Below are positions 4,181 to 44,597 of a DNA stretch of 64,000 bases, one piece after another (positions within the stretch are counted from its first letter, which is position 1; each line of letters opens with the position of its first letter). The stretch is from Lachnospiraceae bacterium (GTDB taxonomy: Bacteria; Bacillota; Clostridia; Lachnospirales; Lachnospiraceae). The notes beneath the pieces were generated by a model. It was not told the origin of the DNA. It was given only the letters and a program-made list of their open reading frames with translations, and did no database searches. The stretch spans positions 14,277 through 78,276 of the forward strand of contig CAJTCL010000008.1 of NCBI GenBank assembly GCA_910575005.1. Direction: 5' to 3'. Both the position numbers and the translations under genes were made by a program.

Positions 4181-5158
4181 TCAATCATTCTGCATATAGA
4201 TTTTTTCCTCTTGAATCGGGGGGTAATGGATCAATAATGTGCTCTCCAGATTTTCCTTATACATATCAACAGCTGTAATCTGATGATTGTCATACGTAGT
4301 GTAATAATAAACACCTCTATCTGTATTACAGCAGGATGTATAAATTGTGATTTCATACTTTCCATTCCCTAAATCACAGCATCCTCTCTGTTGCTCTACC
4401 GAACCTAAAATATGAAAAAATTGACTGACACTCTCTAAATTAGACGCCCCAGAAACAGCATTCATTTTTGTAAAAGCAGCCCTGACAAAACGGGAGGCAG
4501 AGGATAAATCTCCTGGAAGTCCCAACGCACCCATTCCACGACTGTAAGTGTGCAATGGCAGCCTGCTGCAAAAATGATTCTGTGGTTCCTGGGGAGAAAG
4601 ATGCATATAATTATTTAATTGAAACATCTGTTCTTCAAAAGGAGGATTGTTTGTCAATACACCCACCGGATTATCAAAAATTTTAATTCCCTGCTTTGTA
4701 GATTCCACAGTGATAGATGCCCTTCTATCCGCAATTAGCCAGTGCAGTTGTGCCGCTGGCATCTTCTCATCAAAAGGTGTCTTTAAAAGACTGATCTTAC
4801 TCAGCAATTTTTCTGCTTCTTTGACTGTGGCACATTGACTGAGAATCCAAGGAATAAACTCAAAAGTCGCCACATTATCCCGATTAGTCTGCATATCTTG
4901 ATACACTGCATTTCCCACAAAATTTAATCCTGCCATTCCAAGCCCTTTTTCATTCACTGCATCATAAAACAATGGAACATCTTTTGAAATATGCGCCATC
5001 CCAATCATTGCATAATGACAATCCATACGGCCCATACAGCGAAAATCAAAAACATAGCTGCGAGGTATGACCACAATCTCCTCACCATAAGAAAAATCAT
5101 AATCTAAGGTACGTCCAAAATAAAAATCTTTTGTCTTATAGGTTATTGCTGTACACAT
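4181..5158 (-). CDS. bsh: Bile salt hydrolase (choloylglycine hydrolase, Ntn family)
   Basis: A 325-residue protein of the penicillin V acylase/bile salt hydrolase family, which cleaves the amide bond of glycine- or taurine-conjugated bile acids. Processing of Met1 exposes the nucleophile Cys2 (MCTAITYK). Further active-site residues match the Clostridium perfringens enzyme: Arg16 and Asp19 (FGRTLDYD), Asn79 (AGLNF), Asn170 (VLTNNP) and Arg223 (SASRFVRAAF). Asn at the AGLNF position, rather than Tyr, favours bile salt over penicillin V hydrolysis. There is no signal peptide, so it is cytoplasmic. The gene stands alone after an AT-rich promoter region with an inverted repeat (5189-5214). Family and bile salt specificity are well supported; preference for glycine or taurine conjugates is not readable. 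Confidence 0.93.
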   Translation of the reverse strand: MCTAITYKTKDFYFGRTLDYDFSYGEEIVVIPRSYVFDFRCMGRMDCHYAMIGMAHISKDVPLFYDAVNEKGLGMAGLNFVGNAVYQDMQTNRDNVATFEFIPWILSQCATVKEAEKLLSKISLLKTPFDEKMPAAQLHWLIADRRASITVESTKQGIKIFDNPVGVLTNNPPFEEQMFQLNNYMHLSPQEPQNHFCSRLPLHTYSRGMGALGLPGDLSSASRFVRAAFTKMNAVSGASNLESVSQFFHILGSVEQQRGCCDLGNGKYEITIYTSCCNTDRGVYYYTTYDNHQITAVDMYKENLESTLLIHYPPIQEEKIYMQND

Positions 5159-5326: not shown

Positions 5327-6529
5327 CTATGCGGCAATTCCACAGATCCTCTCCAGCGATTCTAAAATTTCTTTCACTTCGTTTTCATGTCCCGGATACT
5401 GCTGCACCAGCTTCTCGATCTCTCTCTTTGCCTTCTGGATATTTTCTATCTGGCTTTCCATACTAGAACGCAGTTTTTGGCGGCGCACCAATAATTCATG
5501 TTTGACCTCCACCATCTCTTTTTTATCCAGCAAAGCCTTTACCTGATAAGTCCAGATTTTAGTGTCATAAAGATGATAGCCGCGAAGTCTGCGCAGAAGT
5601 TTACCTGAAAGAAATTCCAATTCATCATTTGTACGCTGATATTTTTCCCGTTCTCTTACCGCTTCTAGATATTGCTCCCAAATATAATTCAATTCATAAG
5701 AGTTTTTGACATGATATTTCTCACATGCATAATCTACAGCATTGGTGACATTTACATACTTAAATGAAATTTTATTCAACAATGTAGTGGCATAGTTAAT
5801 ATTTACCTGAGATTTCTTAATATCTGCCTCATCATTCTGAATACGCCAGACCATAATCGCCCCCGCAGCACCTACCACAAGCGCTGCCACTAAGACAGGC
5901 ATTGTATAATCAAACTGCAGCACAAGCCCCAAAATCAAAATCATAACTACTACCGCCATACCTGCACCTGCTAAAATATACAATATTTTGCGCAGCACCT
6001 CTTCTTCTTGTTCCAAGGTTTCTTTATAATAGCGCCATTCTTCGCGTTCCCCTTCCAGATACTGCATATCCCGCTTCACTGTAGTCTGGTAAGTTTCGTT
6101 GGATTTGAGACGATTGATCACCTCTGGAATCTGATCCTGGTACTGCTCCATCTGGGCAAACTGGCTATCTGAAATTGTTTTTGTTTTATTTACATAAGCA
6201 TCCCTAGATTGACTGAGAGCTGTAATGCTCTGGGCAATCCCCTGTATCTCGGCATATTCCTGCTCTGGCAGATCTTCAAGGGTTTGAATATCCGTCAGAT
6301 AATCAGTTGCTGTCCCATATTCCCTTTTGGTCTCCTCCAAAGCCTTTGCCGCTGTCAAAATCTGTTCACAGTACTCCATCGCTGGATTTTTCCTTGGCTG
6401 CCTGGAACCCTGCGGCTTTCCAGTATTTTGCTCCTTGGGCCTGCCTGCCTCATCTGGTTGCGCCTGTTCCTCAAATTCCAATATTTCTTCTACATATTTT
6501 GGTTTTTTCTTTTTTTTGAATAATCCCAT
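5327..6529 (-). CDS. Membrane-anchored coiled-coil protein of the Hsp70-like cluster, unknown function
   Basis: A 400-residue protein that starts with a very basic stretch (MGLFKKKKKPKY), then a low-complexity acidic/Gln/Pro linker to about residue 50, a helical region (55-180) with heptad-like patterns, two adjacent hydrophobic segments (about 183-205 and 210-230: AGMAVVVMILILGLVLQF and PVLVAALVVGAAGAIMVW), and a second long helical region ending in a Glu/Lys-rich coiled coil. There is no signal peptide; the two membrane segments form a hairpin with both ends probably cytoplasmic. It is the last gene of the cluster, 2 bases after the TPR gene, so it is likely the membrane anchor of the same complex. 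I recognise no named domain. Confidence 0.75.
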   Translation of the reverse strand: MGLFKKKKKPKYVEEILEFEEQAQPDEAGRPKEQNTGKPQGSRQPRKNPAMEYCEQILTAAKALEETKREYGTATDYLTDIQTLEDLPEQEYAEIQGIAQSITALSQSRDAYVNKTKTISDSQFAQMEQYQDQIPEVINRLKSNETYQTTVKRDMQYLEGEREEWRYYKETLEQEEEVLRKILYILAGAGMAVVVMILILGLVLQFDYTMPVLVAALVVGAAGAIMVWRIQNDEADIKKSQVNINYATTLLNKISFKYVNVTNAVDYACEKYHVKNSYELNYIWEQYLEAVREREKYQRTNDELEFLSGKLLRRLRGYHLYDTKIWTYQVKALLDKKEMVEVKHELLVRRQKLRSSMESQIENIQKAKREIEKLVQQYPGHENEVKEILESLERICGIAA

Positions 6530-6531
6530 TT

Positions 6532-7269
6532 TTACTCACTTTTCCTATACTCTATCCTTAATTCTTGCAGCATACCTTCTATTATTTCTTCATAACTATT
6601 ACGATCCCCAGATTGTTTCTTTTCCTGCAACTCTTTCAACAAACTTTTCATTTTCGCTCCGCCCTGATCTGGCACCTGTCCATCGCGATAGGAAAGGCAG
6701 AGAAGATAAGCCTCACTGCTCTCTGTCTGCTGTCCTGTCTCATAGGCACGCTTAAAACACTCTGCGGCAGGTGCAAATAAGAACTGCCTGGCATAGACCG
6801 TACCAAGATTATGCCAGACCTGACCTTGAAAAAACAGATCACTCTCCTGTTCCAAAGCTTTCAGATACTCAAGTAATGCATCGCGGAATTTTGCTGATTT
6901 TAAATAACGGTCTCCACGCAGCTTTGCACGCTGCACAGGTGTCTTTTTCTCCATAGTCTCGGCAATACGAAGAACATTATTCATCTCTTCAATATTATAA
7001 AATCCACCTTCATTCAAAATCTGCTCCAAACACCAACAGCCACTCTTTTCCTGCTCTAAGCCTTCTAAAAGCTTATGTGCAAGCTCTTGTCTGTCAAGCT
7101 CCTTTGCCAGCCATTGGCACAGAAGCTCATTATAAAAACTTTCTTCCACAGACTCTACATTCTGATAAAGATAATAACATAATTCCTCAAAAGAATACAA
7201 GCTAATACCTGCATTTACCATCAATGGCCGACTCGCCATCTGGTCTTCACATAACCATACTCTGCCCAT
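6532..7269 (-). CDS. TPR-like helical protein of the Hsp70-like cluster
   Basis: A 245-residue protein. I place the start at ATG 7269 (MGRVWLCEDQMA) because GGAGGA lies 7 bases upstream; a GTG at 7296 overlapping the previous stop is the alternative. An N-terminal helical part (residues 1-110, with YSFEELCYYLYQN) is followed by TPR-like repeats (KLRGDRYLKSAKFRDALLEY, WHNLGTVYARQFLFAPAAEC, AYETGQQTESSEAYLLCLSY) with the small/large residue pattern of helical-hairpin repeats. TPRs usually bind partner proteins, often chaperones of the Hsp70 class, which fits the Hsp70-like gene directly upstream. No enzymatic motif is visible. The exact function is unknown. Confidence 0.75.
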   Translation of the reverse strand: MGRVWLCEDQMASRPLMVNAGISLYSFEELCYYLYQNVESVEESFYNELLCQWLAKELDRQELAHKLLEGLEQEKSGCWCLEQILNEGGFYNIEEMNNVLRIAETMEKKTPVQRAKLRGDRYLKSAKFRDALLEYLKALEQESDLFFQGQVWHNLGTVYARQFLFAPAAECFKRAYETGQQTESSEAYLLCLSYRDGQVPDQGGAKMKSLLKELQEKKQSGDRNSYEEIIEGMLQELRIEYRKSE

Positions 7270-7292
7270 CGCTGTTCCTCCATAACTCCATT

Positions 7293-8561
7293 TCACCCCT
7301 GAAATTCGCTGGAAGCCATATCAAGCTCATATTCCCATTCCTGCCCGCTTGCCGGCTTTATCATTCCCCAGCCAAGATCACGTAATCTTAAGAAAATCCT
7401 TCCTTCCTCTCCTGCTGATACCGAAACAGATAATCTGGAACGTCCCTGTGCTGACACTGGAAGTCCTGCAAGATTCAAGGATTCGACCCTTGCATCACGG
7501 TCTCCTGGCTTTTGTACATGTAACTCCAAGAAATCATCCTCACCTTCTAAAATAAGACGAAACTCTCTGCTTACTTGGTAACGATTTTCCCCTGCAACCA
7601 ACAGTGGATAAAAATATGCCTGATTGCCCTTGACTGCTTTGATAAAAATAGATTCTTTTATCTTATATTCACTGACATATATTGTCTCTGCTTTGTCTTG
7701 ATACCTCTGTAACACTCCAGCATAACAGGCACCCCGCGTATAGAGATTTTTGCCCTGAAATGCCCTTCTGCTGCGACAGACTAATTTCAATGACTCCTTC
7801 ATCCATCCGCCCTCAAATCCAGAACCTATCAAATACACTGCAGAGACAATTCTTCCTGCAAGCGCTTCCCCTGCCATCTCAACAAATTTCTGATCTCGTT
7901 CCTTATGCTCCTGCGGCAGCTTTCCGAGAAAAACTTCTGCTACCTCTACTGGCTTAGGAACTACTGCCGTGCGCCCACAGGAAAGCAGGCGACAAAGTAC
8001 TCCATCGCCTTCCTCCTCAAATAATAATACTTGTTGTTTCCACAGAGAGGAATCTTGAGATACCACATAGGCATAAAAGCTTTCTCGATGATCCTGAATT
8101 TGAATCTGGTCTTCCGTAAAACCGAGCTTCTGTGCCAATGCTTGAAAAAAAACAACGATTTCTTCTGTCACTTTCTCTAAGGAAAAAATGCACTTTGTCA
8201 CGGCCTCACACCCCTGAACTGGAAGCGCCAACCGCAATACTTTTCGGCAAAATATCACAAACAATTCCTGTGTTGAATACTCCTGATCAAGCGTAATCGT
8301 CTCATTATGCCAGGCACGATACAAAAGATCTGCTGCATAATAACCTTCCCCAATTTCTGCCAGCCTTCTGCCCTCTTCTCCAAAATACCACTGACCTGTC
8401 TGTTTATGCTTACAGAGTGCCGTAGGAATCTGAAAAACTTCTGTTCCCACAATTGTACTTTTTGTCTCTGGCTCTGCCAGCCCTGCATGGTAGCAGCTAA
8501 TCTGCGTCCATTTCCTGCCTGTCTCTATGCCGATATACCATTCCTCTCTTTTCGGTCTCAT
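7293..8561 (-). CDS. Hsp70-like (ASKHA-fold) protein with degenerate ATPase motifs
   Basis: A 422-residue protein that I read as a divergent Hsp70. Residues 9-26 (YIGIETGRKWTQISCYH) occupy the place of the phosphate-1 loop. About 160-195 (RESFYAYVVSQ and then VLLFEEEGDG) match the connect-1/phosphate-2 region, with the usual DLGGGT changed to EEEGDG. VYLIGSGFEGGWMKESL and KNLYTRGACYAGVL (about 245-285) match the adenosine motif and the closing helix. The last 120 residues resemble the beta-sandwich substrate-binding domain (LNLAGLP, a run of beta strands, LRLRDLGWG). Loss of acidic and glycine positions suggests weak or no ATP hydrolysis. Gene order with a TPR protein and a giant solenoid suggests a dedicated chaperone-like complex. 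I associate these families with Lachnospiraceae DUF57xx entries but cannot confirm the numbers. Confidence 0.7.
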   Translation of the reverse strand: MRPKREEWYIGIETGRKWTQISCYHAGLAEPETKSTIVGTEVFQIPTALCKHKQTGQWYFGEEGRRLAEIGEGYYAADLLYRAWHNETITLDQEYSTQELFVIFCRKVLRLALPVQGCEAVTKCIFSLEKVTEEIVVFFQALAQKLGFTEDQIQIQDHRESFYAYVVSQDSSLWKQQVLLFEEEGDGVLCRLLSCGRTAVVPKPVEVAEVFLGKLPQEHKERDQKFVEMAGEALAGRIVSAVYLIGSGFEGGWMKESLKLVCRSRRAFQGKNLYTRGACYAGVLQRYQDKAETIYVSEYKIKESIFIKAVKGNQAYFYPLLVAGENRYQVSREFRLILEGEDDFLELHVQKPGDRDARVESLNLAGLPVSAQGRSRLSVSVSAGEEGRIFLRLRDLGWGMIKPASGQEWEYELDMASSEFQG

Positions 8562-8630
8562 TGTTCCACCTGCCTTATATCAAAGCCCCACTGACAGCCG
8601 CAGGACTGTGACAATTATCATTTTGTATTT

Positions 8631-8719
8631 GTAACTATTCAAAACCCTGACAAAAGCCTCTTTAAAGGCTTATGACAGCTTGCTAGCATGTCTGTGACAT
8701 GAAGTTAGTGAATAGTTAC
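8631..8719. repeat. Dispersed palindromic repeat, family 1, copy A (89 bp)
   Basis: The ends GTAACTATTCA and TGAATAGTTAC are perfect 11-bp inverted repeats. The interior (CCTCTTTAAAGGC, TATGACA, TTGCTAGCAT, TCTGTGA) matches the right part of copy B at 44424-44597 at roughly 80 percent. It fills most of the gap between the giant-solenoid gene and the Hsp70-like gene and could fold into one long hairpin. It has no coding capacity. It resembles a MITE or REP-like element. Confidence 0.7.
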
Positions 8720-8724
8720 TCGTA

Positions 8725-11700
8725 TTACAACACGGTAAATTCTCTCATTACCATCTCATCCAAGTGCCCATATATTTTTAGCCATTCCAACAGTGCTGTC
8801 TCGTCCTTCATCTGCCAACCAGCCATCATATCATTGACTAGATCAAAACGGCTTTCTTCACCGCTATTGTCAAGCTGCAGCCTTTGTATCTGTCCGCTCT
8901 CCGTAACAGTACATTCCCCCTGCTTTTCTTCTTTAATATAATATGGAATCGCCTCCCCATAAAATATTAAAAATTCCTTGGCATAGACCCCTTCATACAT
9001 CTGCGGCATTTCACATTCTACATACTCGGAATCTCCCAGAGGCTGATAATTAATCAATACCTTGACATCAGCATCTGTGTGATACTCTAAAATAACACGA
9101 TCATGGAGCAAATACTTTTTCCTCAAATCCTCTGGCAGAGATTGATAAAACGCAAAATATCTTCCCTCCATCAGCAAATCTTTTAAAATTTGATCAGCAA
9201 GCGCCAGTTCCTCCTCTGTCAGTTCAACTTTTGAAGCAGACCATTTTAAAAATCCCAGCCTGCATACATGATTTAGTTCTTGATCTTCTCTCAACAGAGC
9301 TGACAGCTTTTGAAAGAGATAGTCAGAAATCACTGCATCCCGCACAATATACTGATGACACATTTTGGTTAGGTATGCCTGAATTATCAAATCTTTGCCC
9401 TGTGTTCTTCCATAGCATTCAAATACTTGTTCCAGGCTGGGCAAAAAATCTCCTGTATACAGGAATCGTTTCAGACAGCGCTCCTCTAATTCATAAGTAT
9501 CTAGCTCAAAATTACGGGCGGCCTGCCAAAGCTTAATCATTTCATTGAGACTGCCATAAAAATACTGACACATATATTTTAAAATCTGCTCATTGTACTT
9601 GCCTCGCAGAAATACATTTCTACAAAATCCCAACAGAAAATCATCTTCTGCGTCGTCTTGCTGCTCCTGCAGCCGGTCACAGAGTACATAGACCAGCTTA
9701 GTAGGTGAAATATGTTCACAGCCATATGCCAATAACAGTTCATAGGCACGCCCATAATGACGTCTGGCCACCAGAAGTTCCATAATTTTTTCTCTGGCCT
9801 GTTTTCCAATTCCCTCAAACGACAGATTTAGTAAAAAATCATCCAACATATCGCCTGTATAATTGTCATAGAAATATGCTACCATCTGTGGACGCAGTTC
9901 CGACTGATATAATTCACTGGTTGCAGAAGAATCCAAAAGCATCTGCAGATAAGGCAGATCTTCTGGCTCATACGTCTGCCAGATCACTTTCTTATCAAAA
10001 TATTTGAGAAGATAAGGAAGTTTATTTTTTGCACAGGAGATACCTTGCTGCAAAAATTCCTCACTGTCTAACAGAGGTGTCACCTTAAGCTCCTCATCCG
10101 GTAAAAACCGCCTGCCACGTGAATCCTCCAACAAAATCTGCCATGTACTGCTGTAAATATTTACATATCCTTTTCCATGAATAATCGGTACTACCTGCTC
10201 ATTTTTCAACGTGTGCTGACATAATACCAGACTACATGCACCAGATGCTGCCCCTGTCACTTCACAGGTAAACAATACCCTTGCAATATCCTCTGCATGT
10301 TCCTCGGTCAATAACTCTGGTGTCAGCACCTCCTTGTAAACGGCCGCCAGCGCATGATCAATCTTCCCACCCTTAAGCTGCCGGAAAACAAATTGTTCCA
10401 TATTTTTGCGATAATGGGGCCACAGCGCCTTCCACTGCGCCTTTGCTTTAATTACCGCTGCATAGAGCATGGCCTGAGGATAGCTGGCAAGATTGCTATT
10501 GCTGTAAGATTGAAAATACAGGACAATAGGCTTTGGCAGTCTCTTAAGCTTTTTTTCATCTGCTGAGAGCACCCAAGCTTCATACAATCCAGTAATCCTC
10601 AGTTCTTCGGCAATACCTAATTGATACCATTTCCAATATTTTCTGCCATAAAACCGGCTTCTAATACAATAGCTGCAAACTGCCTGCAGCAATTCTCTGT
10701 CTGGCCTTGACCGGTAAGCTGCTACCAAAATCCGATACCAGATAAAATCATTAATTGGAATCTGTGGCGCCATTTCTGCAATCTGTTCTGCCATTCCTTT
10801 TGTCAACGCCTGATGCTTGACTGCGAAATACAAGATTTTGCGTTCAAACGCATTGGCTCTTCCCATCAAAAACGGCTCTTTGGCCAAGATCCGCCAGGCC
10901 TCCAGATAGAGTAAGATATTTTCTCTTCCAATCCGCAAATGCTTGGCAATCACTTCCAATTTTCTTCCCTTGCTATAATTGAGATTATCGTCCAAAAACA
11001 GCAATATCCACAATAATATCGGATGATTCTGATGTTTATGAAAGATCTTTCGGATCTGGCTTGTACATTTATTCACATAGGAAGGTTCTGGTTCCCGCAA
11101 TGTACACAGATACAGATAATACGCATAAAGCGGCGTCTCTTTTTCAACCTTATTGCGCGGAAAAGAATCCAGCAGCCATTCCGCCTCCTGTCGCTGTCGG
11201 TTTGCCAAAAATACCTGTGCCTTTGCCAACAGATACCAAAGATTATCTGGTACCAATCCCTGCAGCTCCTCTAAATCTTTGCAAGCTCGTTTTGCCCATA
11301 CACCAGTGACAATCTTATGCATTCCAAAATCGAGATAATCACGGGCAAGCGATACCTGTTTCTTATGGATAGACCGCAAAACGAATTCCCGTGTTCCAAT
11401 CTCTCGAACTGCACTCAACTCGATCTCCACCTTTTGGAATGGAGTTTGCAAAATCAAACGTCCATAATTTTTCCCTGTATGCAGCTTCTCTGGCAGTATC
11501 ATATATTCCACCATGCCGTGGCTGCCGACAAAATCTTCATCGGTAAGGCGCTGCTTTAAAGGTTTGATCCAGTCATCCTCTGAAATCACTTCCAGTGCAA
11601 AATGCCCCCACTCCTCCTTTTTCAAGATCACCTGTTTCTGCTGCGGTTCTGGTATGCCAATAAATTCGTGTTCTGCCTCAGTGACCTCAAACAATACTCT

Positions 11701-12294
11701 TTTCTTCTTGCGCGCCGCAATCAAAAATTCCTCCACCTGCGCCCGTGTACAAGGTCTATGCATCAGTCCTTGATAAATCAGACGCTCGTTTGTCTCCTGC
11801 GGTTTAAAAATATTTAAAAATTCCTCTTTTCCAAAAACTCTGACCGCCTCATTGTAAGATTCACGTGCAAGATTGGCAAATTCAAATATGCTCTTGACTT
11901 TACCCAAAGAGCTGTCTGGATATTTCTTAGAAACGGTCATCACAAATGGCAAAATATATTCGCCCTGATCACTGACAATATGTAAATTCCCCTTCTGGGA
12001 TTCTCCCTCGCTCAAGCCTTCACTGCGAAATTCAAATCGCTGCGTCACATCTGTCCCCTGAAAACCTGATTCCTGGCACACCAACCTTGGACTCGTGGAA
12101 TAGACAATACCTGACACGGGCACACCATCCGTACTTCTAATCGAAAACTCCCCGGTATAAATGGTTCCTTCCAACACCTCAAATTCCAGCTTTTCCGGGG
12201 AAAACTGGAGGATGGAAGATTGACTGGCGCATACTCCTGCGGCCAGTTCCTCTAATTTTCTCTGCAACTCGTCACCTGCTTGCTTTTTTATCAT
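8725..12294 (-). CDS. Giant Ig-like plus alpha-solenoid protein heading the Hsp70-like cluster
   Basis: A 1189-residue soluble protein without signal peptide or membrane segment. Residues about 20-115 form an Ig-like beta sandwich (LQFSPEKLEFEVLEG, then GEFSIRSTDGVPVSG and LPFVMTVS), reminiscent of ASPM-SPD-2-Hydin-type domains. A second beta-rich part follows at about 185-305. From about 310 to 1010 it is almost purely helical with TPR-like pairs (WYLLAKAQVFLANRQRQEAEWLL). A C-terminal beta domain (about 1040-1130, RVILEYHTDADVKVLINY) and a helical tail end the chain. It probably scaffolds the complex with the Hsp70-like, TPR and membrane proteins downstream. The start at ATG 12294 lacks a clear ribosome binding site; the promoter at 12325-12353 would give a leader of about 25 bases. 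I think this is the family catalogued as DUF5717, to be confirmed. Confidence 0.75.
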   Translation of the reverse strand: MIKKQAGDELQRKLEELAAGVCASQSSILQFSPEKLEFEVLEGTIYTGEFSIRSTDGVPVSGIVYSTSPRLVCQESGFQGTDVTQRFEFRSEGLSEGESQKGNLHIVSDQGEYILPFVMTVSKKYPDSSLGKVKSIFEFANLARESYNEAVRVFGKEEFLNIFKPQETNERLIYQGLMHRPCTRAQVEEFLIAARKKKRVLFEVTEAEHEFIGIPEPQQKQVILKKEEWGHFALEVISEDDWIKPLKQRLTDEDFVGSHGMVEYMILPEKLHTGKNYGRLILQTPFQKVEIELSAVREIGTREFVLRSIHKKQVSLARDYLDFGMHKIVTGVWAKRACKDLEELQGLVPDNLWYLLAKAQVFLANRQRQEAEWLLDSFPRNKVEKETPLYAYYLYLCTLREPEPSYVNKCTSQIRKIFHKHQNHPILLWILLFLDDNLNYSKGRKLEVIAKHLRIGRENILLYLEAWRILAKEPFLMGRANAFERKILYFAVKHQALTKGMAEQIAEMAPQIPINDFIWYRILVAAYRSRPDRELLQAVCSYCIRSRFYGRKYWKWYQLGIAEELRITGLYEAWVLSADEKKLKRLPKPIVLYFQSYSNSNLASYPQAMLYAAVIKAKAQWKALWPHYRKNMEQFVFRQLKGGKIDHALAAVYKEVLTPELLTEEHAEDIARVLFTCEVTGAASGACSLVLCQHTLKNEQVVPIIHGKGYVNIYSSTWQILLEDSRGRRFLPDEELKVTPLLDSEEFLQQGISCAKNKLPYLLKYFDKKVIWQTYEPEDLPYLQMLLDSSATSELYQSELRPQMVAYFYDNYTGDMLDDFLLNLSFEGIGKQAREKIMELLVARRHYGRAYELLLAYGCEHISPTKLVYVLCDRLQEQQDDAEDDFLLGFCRNVFLRGKYNEQILKYMCQYFYGSLNEMIKLWQAARNFELDTYELEERCLKRFLYTGDFLPSLEQVFECYGRTQGKDLIIQAYLTKMCHQYIVRDAVISDYLFQKLSALLREDQELNHVCRLGFLKWSASKVELTEEELALADQILKDLLMEGRYFAFYQSLPEDLRKKYLLHDRVILEYHTDADVKVLINYQPLGDSEYVECEMPQMYEGVYAKEFLIFYGEAIPYYIKEEKQGECTVTESGQIQRLQLDNSGEESRFDLVNDMMAGWQMKDETALLEWLKIYGHLDEMVMREFTVL

Positions 12295-12307: not shown

Positions 12308-12324
12308 AGATACAGTTATTGTTC

Positions 12325-12353
12325 ATTATAAACGATTTAAACGCCTGTGTAAA
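12325..12353 (-). promoter_or_regulatory. Promoter of the giant-solenoid/Hsp70-like cluster
   Basis: On the minus strand TTTACA (12348-12353), 17-bp spacer, TATAAT (12325-12330): a near-consensus sigma-A promoter whose start would fall about 25 bases before the ATG at 12294. Confidence 0.65.
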
Positions 12354-12372
12354 GGCAGATTTGGAGGTACAC

Positions 12373-13461
12373 ATGCTGCAGCATAAAGACCATTTTCATG
12401 GAAGTGATTTAGAAAAAATAGAACAAATTTATGGCATTAAAAAAGAAGAAATCATAAGCTTCAGCGCCAATGTAAATCCCCTTGGCGTCTCTCCTCTTTT
12501 GCGTGAGACCTTGGCAAACCATATCGACGCTATCACTACTTATCCCGATAGAGAATACACCACTCTGCGAGAATGCATCGCGTCCTATGTAGACACTGAT
12601 CCTGAAAATATCCTTATGGGCAATGGCTCCACAGAATTGATTTCTCTGTTTATCCAGATTCAACACCCCAAAAAAGCCTTAATCATTGGCCCCACTTATT
12701 CCGAATATGAACGTGAAATTGCCCTGGGCGGCGGTACCAGCCTATATTATCCACTGCAGGAAGAACAAAATTTTGCTTTAGATATCAACAATTTTATGGC
12801 GCAGCTCAACGAAAGTATTGATCTGGTCGTAATCTGTAATCCCAATAATCCTACCTCTGGCGCAATTTCACGGCGAACCATGCGCAAAATCCTTGATGCC
12901 TGCAAACAAAACAACATCTATGTGATGGTAGATGAGACTTATGTAGAGTTTGCCGACAATTACCAAGAAATTACTTCCATCCCGCTGACTGCCTACTATA
13001 ATAACATCTTTATCCTTCGCGGAACCTCCAAATTTTTTGCAGCTCCTGGGCTGCGTTTAGGCTATGCTGTCACAGGCAACCGCGACTTATTAAAATCTAT
13101 CAATACCAGAAAAAATCCCTGGACCATCAATTCCTTGGCCGTGATTGCCGGCGAAATTATGTTCCAGGATTCTTCCTATATTGCCCAAACCAGGGAACTG
13201 ATTGCAACGGAGCGTTCCCGCATCTATCAACTGCTATCTCAGGACAGCCGCTGCAAGACCTATCCCCCCAGTGCCAATTTTATGCTGGTGCGCCTTTTGG
13301 ATAACCGGACTTCCGGCGAACTGTTTGACTGTGCAATACGTGAAAAAATGATGATCCGCGATTGTTCCACCTTCCCATTCCTGGACAATAAATATATCCG
13401 CTTCTGCTTTATGCAGCCGCAAATGAATGATAAACTTATCTCATGTTTGTTTGATTTCTAA
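12373..13461 (+). CDS. CobD-like threonine-phosphate decarboxylase / HisC-type aminotransferase
   Basis: A 362-residue PLP enzyme of fold type I. I chose ATG 12373 because TTGGAGG lies 6 bases upstream; a TTG 54 bases earlier has no such site. The N-terminus (FHGSDLEKIEQIYGI then ISFSANVNPLG) is typical of L-threonine-O-3-phosphate decarboxylase (CobD), and less so of histidinol-phosphate aminotransferase. CNPNNPTSG, DETYVEFAD, RGTSKFFAAPGLRLGY (Schiff-base Lys in TSK) and the C-terminal IRFCFM form the cofactor site. CobD would make aminopropanol phosphate for the cobalamin nucleotide loop. No other cobalamin or histidine genes are near, so the substrate is open. The promoter overlaps that of the divergent giant gene. 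Confidence 0.8.
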   Translation: MLQHKDHFHGSDLEKIEQIYGIKKEEIISFSANVNPLGVSPLLRETLANHIDAITTYPDREYTTLRECIASYVDTDPENILMGNGSTELISLFIQIQHPKKALIIGPTYSEYEREIALGGGTSLYYPLQEEQNFALDINNFMAQLNESIDLVVICNPNNPTSGAISRRTMRKILDACKQNNIYVMVDETYVEFADNYQEITSIPLTAYYNNIFILRGTSKFFAAPGLRLGYAVTGNRDLLKSINTRKNPWTINSLAVIAGEIMFQDSSYIAQTRELIATERSRIYQLLSQDSRCKTYPPSANFMLVRLLDNRTSGELFDCAIREKMMIRDCSTFPFLDNKYIRFCFMQPQMNDKLISCLFDF

Positions 13462-44423: not shown

Positions 44424-44597
44424 GTAACGATTCAGATCCCTATGGAAATATAAGCCAGACCGTTGAAATCTATTTGAAAAAGACTAAATTTCTATTTCTA
44501 TGAGGATGATCATCCCCAAAGCTACAGACGAAAACCTCTTTCAAGGCATATGACAATTTTGCTGGCATATCTGTGATAAGAGTTTCTGAATAGTTAC
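44424..44597. repeat. Dispersed palindromic repeat, family 1, copy B (174 bp)
   Basis: The ends GTAACGATTCAGA and TCTGAATAGTTAC are inverted repeats with one mismatch. The right part (about 44527-44597) matches copy A at 8631-8719; the left part contains about 85 bp that copy A lacks. Together with the small hairpin at 44687-44706 (ACAGAGCA and TGCTCTGT) it fills the 353-bp gap between trxA and the sensor kinase gene. Confidence 0.7.

Follow-up and report, generated by a model that had tools for sequence, protein, structure and literature searches.

An Hsp70-like protein without ATPase motifs in Lachnospiraceae, apparently a remnant of a larger four-Hsp70 machine

To our knowledge, ATPase-dead Hsp70s are few. 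Ssz1, which has a J-protein as its partner and keeps nucleotide-binding subdomain IIB, is an Hsp70 acting inside a fixed complex, and Hsp110 is an ATP-bound exchange factor larger than Hsp70. Loci in which HSP70 and GrpE are tied to a GTPase are described in the pertinent passages of Kaur et al. (2020; PMC7159879). We analyzed a cluster of four genes, D, C, B, and A, in a Lachnospiraceae genome (GenBank GCA_910575005.1, contig CAJTCL010000008.1, positions 14,277 to 78,276); this whole stretch of 64,000 nucleotides is called the window below. Gene C encodes an Hsp70-like protein, and nearly every Lachnospiraceae checked has such an Hsp70 without the ATP-burning parts, apparently a remnant of a bigger machine of four Hsp70s and a recycling factor that is retained by related families.

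Gene C and the Hsp70 family

In other families of the order, which we take to be Lachnospirales, a larger locus encodes in sequence D1 (~390 aa), D2 (~900 aa), Ha (~559 aa), G (565 to 645 aa, 279 aa in locus L033), Hb (412 to 565 aa), Hc (~546 aa), Hd (~690 aa), and B (~387 aa). When profiles were compared with hhalign, C matched Hb with an E value of 1.4e-49 over 410 columns, Hc with 3.8e-21, and DnaK with 1.5e-5 over 118 columns, and Hb itself matched the DnaK profile with 3.5e-25 over 459 columns. The similarity of C to MreB (E 0.069, hhalign probability 0.8, against a profile of three near-identical rows) was not above its similarity to DnaK, a check that an earlier note on this DNA had proposed; the E value of C against the G profile was 0.51. 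Searched directly against PDB, the C sequence returned only translin (E 1.4), and profiles A4 and A5, the latter the alignment of D, returned nothing from the PDB sequences. The link between C and Hsp70 was obtained through Hb as an intermediate and through the fold.

The structure model of C was confident and contained two domains, an actin-like, two-lobed nucleotide-binding domain (NBD) related to that of DnaK and a beta substrate domain with strands at residues 304 to 413. C aligned over its whole length to DnaK structures and to Hb, and its tied best structural matches included Ssz1 and Sse1/Hsp110. The model had no lid, there being no helix beyond the substrate domain, and residues 417 to 422 had predicted local distance difference test scores below 50. 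The Hsp70 fold that had been claimed for C is thus upheld by both the model and the profile comparison.

A tree of 65 rows gave C as one clade (support 100/100), sister to the Hb of L033 from family f4 (100/99), and separated Hb plus C from Hc, Ha, Hd, and DnaK at 100/100. In none of the 200 bootstrap trees did a single branch set Hb apart from all the rest, and C therefore lies inside Hb; a quick tree of 81 rows again yielded C as one clade within Hb. The 65-row tree was calculated without five long rows (the Hb of L153, L152, and L040 and the C of L045 and L049), with Ha, Hc, Hd, and DnaK thinned and Hd trimmed to its first 530 residues, and L147 was dropped as a duplicate of L038. By these sequence comparisons, C is the orthologue of Hb.

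The motif names and residue numbers used here (phosphate loops, Lys70, adenosine motif) are applied as we understand them, and column counts are lower bounds where so worded, since only the four commonest letters were tallied. Phosphate loop 1, Lys70, DxGGGT, and the adenosine motif GG[ST] were kept by Ha, Hc, and Hd (24/24, 29/29, and 24/25 rows), apart from an N to H change in loop 1 of 6 of the 29 Hc; the odd Hd row was that of L033, which is split over two frames. Both Hd and B of L033 (3205-6384) are in two frames, through either decay or an assembly error. In Hb, at least 27 of 30 rows had V, L, I, or M in the Lys70 column, and at least 26 of 30 had E, Q, G, or A for the T of GGGT. C had lost phosphate loop 1, and at least 78 of its 80 members had L, Y, F, or W in the Lys70 column. 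The motifs of the window C read GIETGRKWT, EEEGDGVLC, and DLLY, and the alignment confirmed the earlier claim that EEEGDG occupies the DLGGGT columns. These results support C as an Hsp70-derived protein whose ATPase site has been lost.

Between phosphate loop 2 and the adenosine motif there were 143 residues in the genome's own DnaK, 144 to 146 in Hc, 153 in Hd, 177 to 182 in Ha, and 117 to 152 in Hb, as against 60 to 75 in all 80 C. The C-specific gap of 71 residues corresponds to positions 184 to 254 of the own DnaK (257 to 267 are gone from Hb and Hc too), presumably about 209 to 279 in E. coli numbering if an offset of 25 is assumed. According to the sections of PMC10825016 on this interaction, GrpE contacts residues 255 to 272 and the hairpin at 276 to 302 of subdomain IIB, and exchange factors work by rotating IIB. 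The family without G is thus also without the lobe for G to grip, and, as judged by alignment, NBD subdomain IIB, the GrpE docking site, is absent from C. The Hb of L033 retains the lobe, with 139 residues in this stretch, and its genome retains the short G. The sampled sister lineage (G063) has a GrpE gene as well as the lobe on which GrpE docks, and Lachnospiraceae have neither.

The larger locus and the distribution of its genes

The order Ha-G-Hb-Hc-Hd was kept in 21 of 31 loci (counted by eye, with L152 omitted and L033 included), the rest being partial or ended by contig edges. Unrelated genes stand between the Hsp70 genes in some families (L036, L157, L148, L161, L162). In L032, the Pfam HSP70 model was matched by Ha (E 1.8e-77), Hc (2.5e-57), Hd (2.5e-95; a VWA domain follows), and Hb (1.9e-16), the last also matching DUF5716_C (1.8e-25), and a GrpE domain lay in the final 130 residues of G (1.4e-14). 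Pfam recognized the GrpE domain in 8/8 G members, and among 19 Hb it found DUF5716_C in 18 and HSP70 in 16. DUF5717 was matched by D2 of L032 and D1 of L042, and D1 and D2 are a single protein in Lachnospiraceae. An ordinary DnaK was also present in the five order-level genomes examined.

Among 146 genomes of the order, D was found in 75, G in 60, and Ha in 59. Outside Lachnospiraceae (131 genomes), D and G occurred together in 58, D only in 2, G only in 2, and neither in 69; all 15 Lachnospiraceae had D, and none had G or Ha. The genome lists behind these co-occurrence tallies were copied by hand between searches. None of 150 Lachnospiraceae genera had Ha at an E value of 1e-80, with the 59 matches of the order search as the positive control, and neither Hc nor Hd was seen in the Lachnospiraceae loci inspected. 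A profile of G found no match at 1e-12 in 249 genomes of the phylum, a result of little weight on its own, since the sample held no positive control and, among the genomes listed, a single member of the order from outside the family. The window's own genome had DnaK plus one MreB-sized match to HSP70 and no further HSP70 matches. An aminotransferase gene flanked the locus in 11 of the 31 order-level cases and in 64 of the 100 at family level, and this common flank speaks for the two being one inherited locus.

At least 593 relatives of C were found in a scan of named genomes, including Lachnospiraceae, Petralouisia, Roseburia, Pseudobutyrivibrio, Butyrivibrio, and Agathobacter. In the best 80 of these, D-C-B-A stood on one strand in 72, a recurrence that argues against chance; the other eight comprised four with D-C-B, two with D-C, one with D in two frames, and one without a called C frame. 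The median gaps D-C, C-B, and B-A were 15, 9, and 2.5 nt. D was present in 147 and C in 145 of the 150 genera, both being in 144 and neither in 2 by a tally compiled by eye. D was rare in the class at large, where 6 of 148 genomes had it and all but one of these six were Lachnospiraceae, and no match to D was found on 72,556 plasmids. That nearly every sampled Lachnospiraceae genus carries the locus points to a general function in the cell. In 5 of the 145 genera with C (G053, G620, G678, G624, G597), C and B were a single protein in which both domains were recognized by profile. The 12 loci of this fusion check were picked because their frames were long or their members unusual; the ~700-aa frames of G029 and G030 were rejected as C-B fusions, the genes there being separate.

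Some genera have a shorter D (~1,099 aa), and that of L204 (2817-6116) skips approximately profile positions 747 to 839. In the draft genome of Butyrivibrio fibrisolvens 16/4 (L119, 6426-13174), D is in two frames and B and A are short, so that the locus is either broken or subject to a draft error. A phage location of D was considered and rejected: there were four matches in phage records, and the three inspected (MT835486, MT835988, and MT835719; L218, L219, and L220), labelled 'Bacteriophage sp.', are really bacterial chromosome with D-C-B-A, with valS in addition in L218.

The proposed assembly and its alternatives

We consider it reasonably probable that D, C, and B make up the reduced core of an Hsp70 machine specific to the order, with C as a nucleotide-independent module. 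In the ancestral machine, active Hsp70s would have cycled on the D scaffold, with G as a built-in exchange factor and Hb as a regulatory or scaffold subunit. In Lachnospiraceae the ATP cycle would have been abandoned, and C, held by B through its TPR and by D, may serve as a clamp or a docking module, with a fixed client bound through the beta substrate domain and with neither a lid nor ATP-driven release; A, where present, may optionally tether D-C-B to the membrane. On this view D, C, and B would form a stable assembly, and C would hold its client or partner by the beta domain without an ATP cycle. Descent from a multi-Hsp70/GrpE locus, taken together with the C-B fusions, makes a chaperone-derived complex likely. 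A wider proposal is more tentative, though we hold it to be quite possible: relatives of Lachnospiraceae would have a second dedicated engine, consisting of four non-equivalent Hsp70s (one VWA-fused, one ATPase-dead), a DUF5717 scaffold, and a GrpE-like exchange factor, which would have been made ATP-free in Lachnospiraceae by shedding the motors, the exchange factor, and the lobe that it gripped; only the dead subunit would remain as a core cell component, together with its scaffold and TPR adaptor.

Several points weigh against a nucleotide-independent D-C-B core. Binding by C, its loss of ATPase activity, and the C-B-D interaction are all predicted from sequence and model, and co-transcription of the cluster is judged by gene spacing. 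The deepest Hb splits are unsupported (72/23), C stands on a long stem of 1.71 changes per column for which relaxed constraint is possible, and 4 of the 150 genera had only C or only D, 3 of these being less than 70 percent complete. Nucleotide binding by C would also be compatible with the lost catalytic motifs: phosphate loop 2 still begins with D or E in 65 of 80 C, and Ssz1 was solved with ATP. C might accordingly bind ATP tightly without hydrolysis and stimulate another chaperone, such as the ordinary DnaK kept in the genome, as a static partner resembling Ssz1 or Hsp110, both of which are among its tied structural matches. The loss of phosphate loop 1 and of the Lys70 equivalent, together with the deletion of IIB, the lobe that closes over the nucleotide, makes this unlikely in our view. 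The long stem would suit C as an evolutionary leftover, retained only to space or glue D and B as a folded unit while these two carry the function, as would the absence of the N-terminal part in some members, such as L206 (344 aa). Such a leftover is improbable for a protein that is present in 145 of 150 genera, has 27 invariant positions over 60 sequences, and yields a confident two-domain model that includes the substrate domain.

The membrane location suggested in the earlier note is weakened, because it depends on A. This gene was in 95 of the 146 order genomes, including 12 of the 15 Lachnospiraceae of this evenly drawn sample. Of the 83 outside the family, 27 had neither D nor G; conversely, A was in 56 of the 62 non-Lachnospiraceae genomes carrying D or G. 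A adjoined valS in 5 of 9 unlinked cases, and it was missing from 12 of 19 Lachnospiraceae genomes that keep D, C, and B, a set picked largely by whether A adjoins B and mostly for non-adjacency. A single membrane-anchored complex of all four products would fit the 72 of 80 D-C-B-A loci with their short B-A gap, as well as the linkage of A to the locus in other families (L032, L033, L152, L153, L164, L165), but the occurrence of A without D or G, its place beside valS, and the D-C-B loci without A make it somewhat unlikely. From the same three observations, the core is taken to be D-C-B, with A linked here as an optional or incidental gene and not an obligate partner. The proposed co-occurrence of four genes holds for D, C, and B, which travel together, and less well for A, which also occurs without them; neither an unrelated fold of C nor a failure of D, C, and B to co-occur was found. 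A conflict or defense system is a further alternative. The GAP1-N2 systems join an HSP70, GrpE, a second HSP70 without the peptide-binding domain, and an FNIII-TPR/DnaJ protein, according to the description in PMC7159879 that concerns them. Matches to PADLOC candidates were seen in the larger locus, for Ha, Hc, and Hd with PDC-M61B (E 4e-5 to 5.5e-9) and for B with PDC-M71B (2e-9); B further matched TPR (0.0042). This alternative is highly improbable nonetheless, as PADLOC gave none for the four window proteins, the locus is near-universal with flanks common to relatives, D was unmatched on plasmids, and Pfam found no GTPase or effector domain over the cut-off in the window and L032 proteins, a search that did not include the GAP1 profile; sub-threshold matches to VipE in A (0.0031) and to Tox-PL-2 in 1 of 19 Hb (0.0088) were taken as chance.

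Cluster layout and comparison with known systems

The features are collected in Table 1, and the four frames were found on the minus strand where the earlier note had placed them.

Table 1. Positions in the window of the four genes and of associated features
Feature	Position	Strand	Description
Gene D	8725-12294	-	1189 aa; DUF5717 protein, Pfam PF18984 + PF18983
Gene C	7293-8561	-	422 aa; DUF5716; Hsp70 NBD ~5-290 + beta substrate domain ~300-413
Gene B	6532-7296	-	254 aa; small protein, weak TPR; GTG start
Gene A	5327-6529	-	400 aa; coiled coil, two-transmembrane hairpin, coiled coil
Promoter-like site TTTACA-17-TATAAT	12325-12353	-	upstream of D; consensus match only
MITE-like insert	8630-8720	-	between D and C; outside the system; absent in relative L051
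Aminotransferase gene	12319-13461		flank; divergent
Choloylglycine-hydrolase family gene	4181-5158		flank; PF02275, E 6.4e-99; adjoins cluster

The frames of C and B share 4 nt, 2 nt lie between B and A, and D and C are separated by 163 nt. D matched DUF5717 with E values of 5e-278 and 2.3e-94 (925 and 316.5 bits against a curated cut-off of 25), and C matched DUF5716_C with 8.1e-79 (265.1 bits, cut-off 34.7). The description of D as Ig plus TPR-like was not confirmed: Pfam gives DUF5717, and TPR_19 was weak and confined to 4 of 38 members (best E 0.011). Used as a query of the collection, the DUF5717 alignment gave no conserved stretch. For B a TPR assignment is retained as a weak one, its best match (E 2.6e-5, 24.5 bits) lying under the cut-off of 27; its relatives start at an in-frame Met 9 codons downstream of the window's GTG (MGRVWLC, near 7269). 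TPR proteins classically contact an Hsp70 at an EEVD motif on its C-terminus, and C ends in SSEFQG, which weakens the partnership that had been drawn from this pairing. No Pfam match over the cut-off was found for A, nothing further over the cut-off in an NCBIfam scan, and no Rfam match between 4000 and 14000.

The promoter-like site immediately upstream of D scores 11/12 and is one of two at that score. Between 3500 and 14000, sites scoring at least 9 numbered 35 against 24.6 ± 5.8 expected, so that a single good promoter driving the cluster is no more than plausible. The D-C insert of ~95 nt has 11-nt terminal inverted repeats (GTAACTATTCA/TGAATAGTTAC) and looks like a miniature inverted-repeat transposable element (MITE). 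The D-C gap is 68 nt in L051, the relative without the insert, whose C is 90 percent identical to that of the window. The insert has a folding energy of -33.3 kcal/mol (z -5.5), and near matches to its 11-nt repeat number 8 in the window, where 1.1 would be expected. A second facing pair of the repeat, with one mismatch in one arm, spans 174 nt at 44424-44597.

With the Hsp70 (DnaK) family, PF00012, C shares the NBD and the beta substrate domain, profile homology being transitive via Hb and Hc, and it differs in having no ATPase motifs, IIB, or helical lid and no GrpE partner in its locus. Ssz1 of the ribosome-associated complex would be the nearest working analogy, from which C differs in its missing IIB; Pfam found no J-domain in the window or L032 locus proteins. 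C is also smaller than Hsp110/Sse1. C and D are members of Pfam DUF5716 and DUF5717, model names that carry neither a function nor a reference to Hsp70. A GrpE-containing locus with four Hsp70s was not found in open-access full text, where the sole mention of DUF5716/DUF5717 was unrelated, as judged by its title. Across many genomes, the loci form a series that leads from a multi-Hsp70 locus, still active, to an ATPase-dead form, and they suggest a testable role for two DUF families that almost every sampled genus of this dominant gut family has. The GAP1-N2 systems, so far as the relevant part of PMC7159879 describes them, are alike in HSP70 and GrpE, in a truncated HSP70, and in a TPR-linked beta-sandwich protein, and they differ in that no GTPase was found here, that the larger locus has four Hsp70s, and that the locus is near-universal in Lachnospiraceae.
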